From an uncultured Pelagibacteraceae bacterium (GTDB lineage Bacteria; Pseudomonadota; Alphaproteobacteria; Pelagibacterales; Pelagibacteraceae): DNA of 52,035 nt. The translations under genes and the position numbers were made by a program. The notes under the pieces were generated by a model. That model made no database searches and was not told where the DNA came from. It saw only the letters and a program-made list of their open reading frames with translations. Where the stretch lies: NCBI GenBank assembly GCA_902606105.1, contig CACLFK010000006.1, positions 1-52,035 on the forward strand. The letters run 5' to 3'. This document shows, in pieces, positions 4,435 through 22,334 of this stretch (positions within the stretch are counted from its first letter, which is position 1; each line of letters starts with the position of its first letter).

Positions 4435-4440
4435 AATATA

Positions 4441-4500
4441 CTCCTTTTTTAGTGCTTCAACATTATGTAAGGCGCACAATATAGTTCAAATGCCTACCGA
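4441..4500 (-). promoter_or_regulatory. SAM-V-like riboswitch, RBS-proximal member of tandem pair
   Basis: On the minus strand a stem GTAGGC / GCCTTAC (one bulged base) encloses an AU-rich loop ATTTGAACTATATTGTG. The loop-side GTGC can pair exactly with GCAC just downstream as a pseudoknot, followed by CTAAAAAAGGAG. The layout matches the SAM-II/SAM-V aptamer core (GATTTAACCGTATTGC ... GTAGCTAAAAAGG in the classical SAM-II). The 3' pseudoknot strand runs into the Shine-Dalgarno GGAG of metY, so ligand binding would hide the ribosome site. SAM-V has been described in marine bacteria, including SAR11. The ligand is inferred. Confidence 0.75.
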
Positions 4501-4509
4501 TAGTTTTCT

Positions 4510-4642: not shown

Positions 4643-5101
4643 ATGACAAAATTCCTTAAAAAAGACCAAATAACATCATCTTGGTACGAAATTGATGCAA
4701 CTAATGCAGTTGTTGGTAGATTGGCTACAGTTGTTTCAAATATTATAAGAGGAAAAAATAAAACAACTTACACTCCACATTTGGATGATGGTGATTTTGT
4801 AGTTGTTAAAAATATTGAACAAGTAAAATTCACAGGGAAAAAATTTCAAGACAAAAAGTATTACAGACATACAGGTCACCCTGGTGGTATTAAGATTGCT
4901 ACACCTGAAAAATTACATGAAAAAAAACCAGGTGAAACTTTAAAACTTGCGGTTAAAAGAATGTTACCTGGTGGTGTTTTGGGTCGAAAACAATTAACTA
5001 AATTAAAAATTTACTCAGGTAACGATCATCCACATTCTGCACAAAATCCTACAGTCATCGAATTAAAAAATTTGAATAGAAAAAATTTAGTTAGAAATTA
5101 A
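4643..5101 (+). CDS. rplM: 50S ribosomal protein L13
   Basis: A 152-residue early-assembly protein of the large subunit. It has the family blocks WYEIDATNAVVGRLAT, YRHTGHPGG and AVKRMLPGGVLGRKQL, followed by LKIYSGNDHPH. It is followed 1 nt later by rpsI, the universal rplM-rpsI pair. The start at 4643 gives the standard N-terminus, but there is no Shine-Dalgarno upstream. It is divergent from metY across a 208-nt region shared with the metY riboswitches. Confidence 0.97.
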   Translation: MTKFLKKDQITSSWYEIDATNAVVGRLATVVSNIIRGKNKTTYTPHLDDGDFVVVKNIEQVKFTGKKFQDKKYYRHTGHPGGIKIATPEKLHEKKPGETLKLAVKRMLPGGVLGRKQLTKLKIYSGNDHPHSAQNPTVIELKNLNRKNLVRN

Positions 5102-9868: not shown

Positions 9869-10060
9869 TTAAATAGTAAATAAAAGGTTACTAATAATTA
9901 ATGTATTAAATTAATTACTATTATTAAATTATTGTAATTATTATATATATTTAAAATTAAAAACATTAATTATTACAAATAAGACTTAGATTTTTATAAT
10001 TTTTAATGTTATTTAAAATAATTATAAAAAATAATTAATTAAAAAATATTAATGAATAAA
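9869..10060. other. Extremely AT-rich intergenic block
   Basis: I count 13 G or C in 190 bases (9871-10060), about 7%, against about 30% for the window. No ORF of useful length and no DnaA boxes are visible. Several short inverted repeats (for example AATAGTAA with TTACTATT) occur, but many are expected by chance at this composition. It marks the left edge of the non-core region before the glycan island. Confidence 0.7.
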
Positions 10061-10381: not shown

Positions 10382-10651
10382 CTATATTTTAACTTTTTCT
10401 GATCTAAGCAATGATAGCTTTTTCTTAATTCCACCCCTAGCAGAGTATCCTCCAAGTCCTCTATCAGATCTAATTACCCTGTGACAGGGTATTTTCCTGA
10501 TTTCTGGGTTTTTCCCACACGCATTTGCTACAGCTCGAGCCGAATTAGGTCTTTTTATAGCAATTGCTACTTCTTTGTAAGTTTTTACCTTACCTTTTGG
10601 GATTGTTTTTAAATAATTCCAAACTTTTAACTGAAATTTAGTGCCATTCAT
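10382..10651 (-). CDS. MGMT/Ogt-family DNA alkyltransferase, C-terminal domain only
   Basis: Ogt-type proteins take alkyl groups from O6-alkylguanine or O4-alkylthymine onto a cysteine in a single-use repair reaction. The 89 residues cover only the C-terminal DNA-binding/active-site domain. GTKFQLKVWNYLKTIPKGKVKTY opens it, the Arg-containing ARAVANACGKNP helix follows, and PCHRVI has the acceptor Cys56. The tryptophan of non-enzymatic ATL proteins is absent, so it may be catalytic. The ATG at 10651 gives the normal domain start. The frame extends to a GTG at 10726 through an inverted repeat with non-family sequence, which I consider unlikely to be translated. Confidence 0.75.
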   Translation of the reverse strand: MNGTKFQLKVWNYLKTIPKGKVKTYKEVAIAIKRPNSARAVANACGKNPEIRKIPCHRVIRSDRGLGGYSARGGIKKKLSLLRSEKVKI

Positions 10652-10685
10652 GAGGTAATTTGTGTTTAAAGAGAAAAACCACTTT

Positions 10686-10709
10686 TTTATGCACTTTTCA
10701 GTGCATAAA
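10686..10709. repeat. Perfect 9-bp inverted repeat (hairpin) beside the GC-rich block
   Basis: TTTATGCAC (10686-10694) and GTGCATAAA (10701-10709) are exact inverted copies around a 6-nt loop. It lies between the GC-rich block and the ogt-like start at 10651. On the minus strand no T run follows directly (TTTTT comes about 8 nt later), so it is not a classical terminator. It could be the end of an RNA, an operator or an element boundary. Confidence 0.5.
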
Positions 10710-10721
10710 GTAGTAGTTTTA

Positions 10722-10850
10722 GGCACGTCGTTGACTCGCTATCGCCATGCCACCCGCTTCGCGCGTTCAGCGATTCCCCGCGAAACTTTCTGCCCTCTGA
10801 ATTTGTACCTTGCGGCTTTTCTCCAGCTGGCCAGTTAAGAGTTGCCCCTT
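10722..10850. other. GC-rich block, candidate structured RNA or foreign fragment
   Basis: I count 74 G or C in 129 bases, about 57%, roughly twice the window average, with sharp edges. On the minus strand TTCGCG can pair with CGCGAA around a 15-nt loop. ATCGC can alternatively pair with GCGAT, and end segments GGCA-ACTC and GAGT...TGCC could close the whole block. In very AT-rich genomes such islands are often structural RNAs. I could not match it to tRNA, tmRNA, RNase P, SRP or 5S motifs. One minus frame is open for about 28 codons before TGA, so a foreign gene fragment is also possible. Confidence 0.45.
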
Positions 10851-10946
10851 AATTAATTCTAATATATCAACTGTATTATTTATTTATATCACTTTTTAGT
10901 TGTTTTTTAAAAATATGGCGACTAACTGTGAATAGTGGGGATAATT

Positions 10947-11123
10947 CTATTTCCCAAAAATAAGAATAAAATAGCTTATAAGAAAAAAAATAAATAGGAT
11001 TGTTAAGTAGAATGTCTCGATTGATTTTCCAGTTTTCTTAAATTGAATAATGCTTAATATTGCGAAAGCAATTGCACTAATTAAAAAATAATTAGGTTCT
11101 ATAAATCCGTTCATTGAGCCCAT
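10947..11123 (-). CDS. Small two-helix membrane protein, hypothetical
   Basis: A 58-codon ORF starting at ATG 11123 and ending at TAG 10947. It encodes a hydrophobic segment at about residues 11-28 (NYFLISAIAFAILSII), a short basic loop FKKTGKS, and a second segment at about 38-56 (FYLTILFIFFLISYFILI). This clean helix-loop-helix pattern is hard to get by chance and suggests a real inner-membrane protein with both termini on the same side. A second ATG at 11114 could also be used. No homologue is recognised. It lies between the GC-rich block and the recombinase, transcribed away from the latter. Confidence 0.65.
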   Translation of the reverse strand: MGSMNGFIEPNYFLISAIAFAILSIIQFKKTGKSIETFYLTILFIFFLISYFILIFGK

Positions 11124-11162: not shown

Positions 11163-11201
11163 ATATTACTAACGATAATTAATTGTTATCAATAGTAATA
11201 T
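11163..11201. promoter_or_regulatory. 39-bp two-arm palindrome abutting the recombinase start; possible recombination core site or operator
   Basis: ATATTACTA (11163-11171) is inverted exactly as TAGTAATAT (11193-11201), and GATAA (11174-11178) as TTATC (11186-11190), leaving a 7-nt centre TTAATTG. So 14 of 16 arm positions pair around a 7-bp spacer. Two inverted arms around 6-8 bp is the geometry of tyrosine-recombinase core sites (dif, loxP). It ends 3 nt before the recombinase ATG, so it could also be an autoregulatory operator. AT-rich DNA raises the chance of such repeats. Confidence 0.5.
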
Positions 11202-11204
11202 TAT

Positions 11205-12158
11205 ATGAATGAGCTAACTACAGACCTAAAATCGCTGCATGAGGCAACTTTAAATAACCTCAAAAGTTCTAAAGCTAATAACACATTAAGAGCATATAAA
11301 TCAGACTTTAAGGATTTTGGTATTTTTTGTGCTAAGCATAATTTAAATTCATTACCATCAGAACCTAAAGTAGTTTCTCTATATTTAACTTACCTTTCTA
11401 AAAGTTCAAAAATTAGCACTTTAAGGAGAAGACTAGTATCAATAAGTATGGTCCATAAGTTAAAAGGACATTATTTAGATACAAAACATCCAATTATTGT
11501 TGAAAATTTAATGGGCATAAAAAGAATCAAAGGGAGCATTCAAAAAGGTAAAAAACCATTATTAATTAGTCATTTAAAATTAGTAATTAATGTAATAAAT
11601 GAACAAAAAATTAATGATATTAAGAAATTTAGAGACAAGTCAATAATATTACTCGGCTTTGGAGGTGGTTTTAGAAGAACAGAACTAATTTCAATTGACT
11701 ATGAAGATTTAGAATTTGTTGATGAAGGAGTTAAAATCATTATTAAAAGGTCAAAAACAGATCAATTTGGTGAAGGAATGATAAAAGGTATACCCTATTT
11801 CACTAATGAAAACTATTGTCCAGTGGCTAATTTAAAAAAATGGATAGAAATTGCTAAAATCAAATCAGGTCCTATTTTTAGAAGATTTTCTAAAGGTCTT
11901 AATTTAACAGATAAAAGATTAACAGACCAATCTGTAGTTTTGTTAATGAAAAAATATTTAAATTATGCAGGAATTGAAAATAAAAATTTTGCTGGCCATA
12001 GTTTAAGATCTGGTTTTGCCACTGTAGCAGCAGATGCTGGTGCAGATGAACGTAGTATTATGGCTATGACAGGTCATAAAACCACACAAATGGTAAGAAG
12101 ATATATTAGGGAAGCAAATATATTTAAAAACAATGCTTTAAATAAAATAAAACTATGA
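11205..12158 (+). CDS. Tyrosine recombinase/integrase
   Basis: A 317-residue site-specific recombinase. Residues 10-105 form the SAM-like core-binding domain (NTLRAYKSDFKDFGIFC) and 115-305 the catalytic domain. All catalytic positions are present: R157 or R158 in GGFRRTEL, K184 in KRSKTDQ, H265 and R268 in GHSLRSGF, H291 in MTGHKTT and the nucleophile Y300 in RRYIREA. It resembles the XerC/XerD-like integrases found in islands. The stop overlaps the start of a glycosyltransferase gene by 4 nt, an unusual coupling. A large palindrome ends 3 nt upstream of its ATG. Confidence 0.92.
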   Translation: MNELTTDLKSLHEATLNNLKSSKANNTLRAYKSDFKDFGIFCAKHNLNSLPSEPKVVSLYLTYLSKSSKISTLRRRLVSISMVHKLKGHYLDTKHPIIVENLMGIKRIKGSIQKGKKPLLISHLKLVINVINEQKINDIKKFRDKSIILLGFGGGFRRTELISIDYEDLEFVDEGVKIIIKRSKTDQFGEGMIKGIPYFTNENYCPVANLKKWIEIAKIKSGPIFRRFSKGLNLTDKRLTDQSVVLLMKKYLNYAGIENKNFAGHSLRSGFATVAADAGADERSIMAMTGHKTTQMVRRYIREANIFKNNALNKIKL

Positions 12159-22329: not shown

Positions 22330-22334
22330 AATGA

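Follow-up and report, generated by a model that had tools for sequence, protein, structure and literature searches.

The GC-rich block at positions 10722-10850 of the window (the whole stretch of 52,035 nucleotides analysed here) is a minus-strand gene for the IMES-2 RNA, a class already known. We propose that this RNA is a trans-acting and probably protein-binding transcript of about 190 nt with its own promoter, placed under a regulator at two upstream blocks (A and B), rather than a cis-regulator of the ogt gene or a cargo of the neighbouring recombinase, and we give this reading a probability of about 0.6. IMES-2 is said to have been described in reports of 2009 from marine metagenomes, as an RNA abundant in the sea and of unexplained function. 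To our knowledge no function has been assigned to it since, and no paper on its function was found in the literature searched. The SAR11 bacteria that carry IMES-2 are among the most abundant in the sea. Placed on their chromosomes with predicted ends, a pseudoknot and a control region, this RNA becomes a concrete test object, and close relatives with and without it offer a ready comparison. What is added here concerns the hosts, the boundaries of the unit, the covariation between the two loops, the control element ahead of the RNA and the behaviour of the cassette; some of this may already be published. The features of the locus are as follows:

10720..10859, minus strand: IMES-2 RNA core (RF02035), cmscan 125.8 bits, model positions 1-141 of 141, with covariation
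10668..10720, minus strand: predicted intrinsic terminator, a long hairpin with a T-rich tract behind it, fold -21.7 kcal/mol, z -8.4
10861..10869, minus strand: extended -10 promoter-like element TGnTAnnnT, mostly conserved in 40 distinct loci
10884..10905, minus strand: upstream block B, about CAAC..AAAGTGATAC, conserved in 40 loci
10924..10946, minus strand: upstream block A, two adjacent 9-mers in the window, TTATCCCCA CTATTCACA, conserved upstream
10652..10946, minus strand: whole cassette of about 295 bases (A, B, promoter, RNA and terminator), absent in relatives lacking IMES-2
10382..10651, minus strand: ogt-like gene for a methylated-DNA--protein-cysteine methyltransferase (PF01035, TIGR00589)
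10947..11123, minus strand: small ORF of 58 aa, membrane-protein-like by eye, without family match

The block had been singled out in the first-pass annotation as an isolated island of about 57% GC with sharp edges, and the counts bear this out: 74 of its 129 bases are G or C, more than in any other stretch of this length in the window (binomial z of 7.6 against a mean of 27.4% GC; the runner-up, at 22333, holds 64), and the GC content drops at once to 27.7% in the 130 bases on the left and to 21.7% in the 129 bases on the right. The neighbouring block of near 7% GC described with it does exist (9900-10049, 6% GC), but it lies some 700 bases away, beyond ogt, and does not adjoin the island. 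This stretch sits between an EamA-family gene and ogt, and several relatives also have low-GC stretches near the matching place. All 4227 Rfam models were scanned, a search recommended from the start; RF02035 was found at the block on the minus strand at 125.8 bits, against a cut-off of 54.7 bits, and no other family there reached an E-value of 1. ARAGORN found no tRNA or tmRNA at the block, its four tRNAs lying elsewhere in the window. The prediction of a structured RNA outside the housekeeping families was thus right, and the idea of a new class falls away, since the family is already in Rfam. The score of the window copy is below that of most listed relatives (up to 166.3 bits), and four of its positions (two model pairs) are marked as non-standard in the model alignment. 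As for a protein-gene fragment, the overlapping plus-strand ORF of 58 aa (10662-10838) runs antisense to the covarying RNA and was rejected; the ORF cluster (≥50 aa) that includes it occurs in only 23 of 61 loci. The same window holds a SAM-V riboswitch (4438-4504, minus strand, 80.1 bits) beside an ORF at 4643 that by eye resembles ribosomal protein L13. In a study of ‘Cand. P. ubique’, the table for HTCC1062 places a SAM-V element between rplM and metY, and the table of GC-rich intergenic regions does not name IMES-2 (PMC2704228).

The core of the RNA folds as a row of hairpins, P1, P2 with an inner hairpin, P3 and P4, joined by a loop-loop pseudoknot between P3 and P4. Most of the complementary segments noticed at first sight find their place in this consensus: TTCGCG/CGCGAA makes the stem of the third hairpin, GGCA/TGCC (10722/10748) is part of the fourth stem, and ATCGC/GCGAT forms the pseudoknot between the loops of both, but ACTC/GAGT has no consensus pair. 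Folded as a single sequence, the minus-strand core alone is mildly above chance (z -1.77, with 7 of 200 shuffles as good) and the plus strand gives a z of -0.05, whereas the window RNA with its terminator reaches -66.4 kcal/mol (z -4.67, 1 of 200 shuffles as good). Strong covariation is seen among the homologues. Aligned freely with MAFFT, 36 distinct sequences have 97.1% of the cells in standard pairs, and two-sided changes occur in 30 of 42 pairs, compared with 17.6 ± 2.0 in shuffles (none of 500 as high), while sliding the partners by 1-3 columns lowers the pairing to 33-41%. A model-fitted alignment of 94 distinct sequences, which is biased towards the nested helices of its model, gives 97.5% paired and two-sided changes in 33 of 42 pairs. 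Homologues varying with loss of base pairing had been named beforehand as grounds for giving up a structured RNA; what they display is pairing preserved by compensatory change.

The pseudoknot is absent from the model behind the larger alignment. Letters on both sides are present in 91 of its 94 distinct rows, of which 75 keep an exact helix of 5 bp and 16 keep four of the five pairs. The exact types are GCGCT/AGCGC (64 rows), GCACT/AGTGC (4), GTACT/AGTAC (3), TCGCT/AGCGA (3) and GTGCT/AGCAC (1), and the window itself carries TCGCT/AGCGA, a compensatory change; the rows with one mismatch are TCGCT/AGCGC (14), GCGCT/AGCGA (1) and TCGCT/AGCTG (1). Because the non-palindromic types also stay complementary from loop to loop, an internal contact rather than self-dimerisation would be the conserved feature. 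Identical sequences were counted once throughout. The smaller alignments, A1 and A2, hold 36 and 28 of 40 distinct sequences, with one locus of 63 bases at a contig end (L060) left out, and a further set of 100 rows draws on 80 of the 119 listed named loci, three of its rows being partial or short (L129, L156 and L167).

A single copy of IMES-2 is present in the genome of the window (1.03 Mb in 49 contigs, 72.6% complete). Under stricter filters, on which alone most of the negatives rest, a match was found in 200 of 397 genomes of the order Pelagibacterales, one per genome, and 30 out of 30 positives searched again gave one match each. The carriers belong to 6 of 13 genus codes, all within one family code; among good-quality genomes of the order, 75 of 151 carry the RNA, and none of 14 control genomes does. 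The remaining 197 of the 397 genomes have no match, which indicates that IMES-2 is not essential to SAR11 life. For divergent copies, a model (R1) built from 28 diverse IMES-2 sequences gave in 40 negative genomes nothing below an E-value of 0.13, and its 10 weak matches there (E 0.13-0.91) were taken as absence. An exact 18-base IMES-2 pattern was also searched for in a collection that represents each of 84,980 species by a single genome, where it occurs in at least 119 records. Among the matches listed, all 119 named records are classed as Pelagibacterales, which points to SAR11 as the host group; rarer hosts may exist beyond this order, outside the matches listed. The isolate codes of 117 of these 119 records are presumably of the kind used for single-cell genomes. 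On the viral side, an exact 18-mer in a phage contig (L246) was rejected as a copy, lying inside a long ORF that by eye resembles a tail sheath protein and giving no model match. The 18 viral hits of a second pattern were likewise discarded, with no IMES-2 model match at the hit and one contig with an unrelated match at E 0.4. IMES-2 was not found in phage records with the query L008, and a plasmid search with the window query returned one piece covering 20% (E 6e-3), taken as chance.

Outside the RNA core, the flanks of the unit suggest where it may begin and end. Downstream, a hairpin comparable to that of the window was found in each of the seven loci folded (z -4.0 to -8.4), with stems that differ in sequence between loci, as would be expected for intrinsic termination. 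The T-run that follows is good in most printed flanks and poor in some (L035, L039, L041 and L043). Upstream, the extended -10 element predicts a transcript start near 10855. A generic sigma-70 scan missed this promoter, and the number of sites that it reported was no higher than in shuffles. In all 40 distinct loci, the AAAGTGATAC part of block B begins 36-39 bases ahead of the RNA core and keeps at least 7 of 10 matches. Block A agrees at 11 to 18 of 19 positions with TTATCCACACTATTCACAG in the 40 distinct loci and starts either 74-79 or 84-87 bases before the core. Two distances about one helical turn apart, with block B fixed, would fit a protein bound to DNA. Weight matrices built from these sites found the pair of A and B at the three IMES-2 loci and nowhere else in three genomes (852,035 bases), in a scan that is partly circular given that two of the three loci are in the training set and the third shares the block sequences of a training locus. 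Taken as sequence elements, both blocks, the extended -10, the RNA and the terminator are consistent with an RNA of about 190 nt that is transcribed independently.

The surroundings of this unit are less constant than the unit itself. In the genus of the window the order is a divergent Xer-like recombinase, the small ORF, IMES-2 and ogt; 49 of 61 loci have ogt downstream and on the same strand, and among the loci looked at ogt is linked to IMES-2 in this genus only. Seven of the 61 loci, from three other genus codes, have an mnmA-like gene upstream and a convergent gene for an unknown membrane protein downstream; three more, from another genus, show a nuclease-like gene upstream and a convergent gene downstream; of the last two, one has other neighbours and the other is cut by the contig end. 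The listed named records repeat the same two main contexts, by a rough motif count that includes one false viral hit. Where IMES-2 is missing, the site can be seen empty: of 14 negative loci compared (out of 27 in the tree below), 11 have either 6 bases between the small ORF and ogt (five loci) or an overlap of the two (six loci), and the other three have a different sequence ahead of ogt. Not every negative locus looks alike: L093, L097 and L100-L103 have, beside ogt, a gene of about 146 aa. In genomes with this arrangement, the cassette of about 295 bases thus appears to be present or absent as a unit, and no Rfam family was found replacing IMES-2 at the 11 negative loci scanned. In a tree of 147 distinct Xer proteins (FastTree), which includes 27 from negatives and has weak support at 71 of 144 inner branches, presence and absence require at least 18 changes, five of them forced by well-supported branches; the count of 18 could be too high if the marker gene has recombined or if copies were missed.

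At the other side of the small ORF we find a second set of features:

11205-12158, divergent from the small ORF: Xer-like recombinase, best matches to Xer families, below their cut-offs
11174-11190, directly upstream of the recombinase start: dif-like interrupted palindrome, conserved in 21 of 21 sequences

The recombinase has a phage-integrase domain match above the cut-off. One match each was found in all 15 genomes of one set and in 17 of 30 of another, with and without IMES-2, and the 13 misses comprise five genomes of another family, one of another genus and seven drafts of the same genus. This looks like a conserved Xer gene. Of 15 genomes searched, 14 have the dif-like pattern once each, the exception being of another family, and its reversed control is found in none of the 15; the site stands directly beside the recombinase in all 11 of those 14 genomes in which the recombinase was mapped. 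In four single-contig genomes it lies 0.5, 2.6, 9 and 74 kb from the maximum of the cumulative GC skew, which was sampled every 40-90 kb, and by a best-breakpoint measure the skew switch is displaced by as much as about 60 kb. A recombinase adjoining its site is also the layout of the single-recombinase systems XerS/difSL and XerH/difH in a 2009 survey, which reports that Pelagibacter ubique lacks a dif/Xer system (PMC2731167); no later correction was found among the matches listed for Xer with SAR11 or Pelagibacter in the literature. Judged from its sequence, the pair is possibly an unreported single-recombinase system for dimer resolution. The genes beyond the Xer gene (12155 onwards; L092-L103), glycosyltransferase-like and others, vary between genomes, mostly by eye, and a variable region seems to begin at the dif/Xer locus.

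Block A resembles what we take to be the consensus DnaA box, and IMES-2 was considered as a marker of the replication origin. Its position led us to reject this: the locus lies at the GC-skew maximum, as a terminus would, in one genome (G015), the cumulative GC skew of the window peaks beside it, and in two more genomes, G007 (1.211 Mb) and G001 (0.303 Mb), it is about 150 kb from the coarse skew minimum. Exact DnaA boxes number 5 to 10 per genome in four genomes, below the reversed control in each, and no large cluster of them was found in these four, with one pair 0.5 kb apart in G000.

What IMES-2 may do has to be read from this combination of a preserved fold and changing neighbours. The idea of an RNA borne on an island by the adjacent recombinase finds no support, this gene being a conserved Xer-like one found in genomes with and without IMES-2. 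Of the suspected foreign insertion, what stands is a cassette that is missing at the same place in relatives and switches repeatedly between presence and absence on the rough tree. Such patchiness, with the empty site, is what would speak for a mobile-element cargo or an attachment site carried in by the recombinase, but the latter is distant from IMES-2 in other genomes such as G094, only weak AT-rich repeats surround the cassette (the longest direct pair having 20 nt at 75%), and the phage, plasmid and viral searches yielded no confirmed copy, so that this is the least probable of the explanations considered. A cis-acting leader of ogt, either a riboswitch or an attenuator, draws on the 49 loci with ogt on the same strand behind IMES-2 and on the window, where ogt starts about 20 bases behind the terminator; read-through into ogt is indeed possible in this genus with the gene starting right behind the hairpin. 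The other genera nevertheless keep the same RNA, upstream blocks and hairpin ahead of a convergent or unrelated gene, and at least four contexts were found, where a cis-leader would be expected to stay ahead of the same gene or pathway, which leaves this explanation quite improbable.

The main rival is a small RNA of the antisense type, possibly dependent on Hfq, that would pair with mRNAs. Size, a promoter-like region of its own and a terminator-like hairpin all fit it; many of the most conserved bases, on the contrary, sit in helices, junctions and the two loops of the pseudoknot, and we hold it to be unlikely, if the most serious of the alternatives. A SAR11 stand-in for the 6S RNA, binding RNA polymerase, would agree with the similar length and with the fact that 6S (RF00013) has no match in the window, nor in any of the 397 genomes of the order when searched with the stricter filters, whereas Caulobacter and three more of the 14 control genomes are positive. 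Its fold is a row of hairpins instead of a 6S-type long helix with a central bubble, and 197 of the 397 genomes are without matches to both RNAs; we consider this very improbable. We favour a trans-acting, protein-binding RNA because the conserved features are structural and the genomic context is not constant. IMES-2 would be made as an RNA of about 190 nt from a promoter of its own, in amounts set by a regulator that binds the DNA of blocks A and B, and would act in trans, most likely by offering a compact folded surface to a protein, be it as a sponge, a scaffold or a component of an RNP. It would not be mainly a cis-regulator of ogt, nor a cargo of the recombinase. A bolder version, which we regard as a long shot, sees a SAR11-specific global regulator in a self-contained cassette at various chromosomal sites, with a two-part control element, which would bind a central protein and be turned on or off at block A by a DnaA-like or another replication-linked factor; in the extreme case the bound protein would be RNA polymerase itself, in an order where no 6S RNA was found.

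Compared with known systems, IMES-1 (RF02034), reportedly named in the same series, has no match in the window or the 397 genomes, with controls that are also negative, so its absence is not demonstrated. In the literature searched, the name IMES-2 occurs in one paper, that on the giant squid genome. With 6S RNA, IMES-2 shares a similar length and a stand-alone gene. The hallmark of 6S is a long helix with a large central bubble and paired 5' and 3' ends; IMES-2 is without this single long helix and bubble, and an end pairing of the 6S type amounts to 3 bp, in the minimum-energy fold and not in the consensus. The closest likeness is to RF02035 itself, a family of marine bacteria, to which the window RNA belongs both by score and by the structure that covariation maintains, matching it over the full length of sequence and fold; the upstream region and the terminator of the window unit fall outside the Rfam model.
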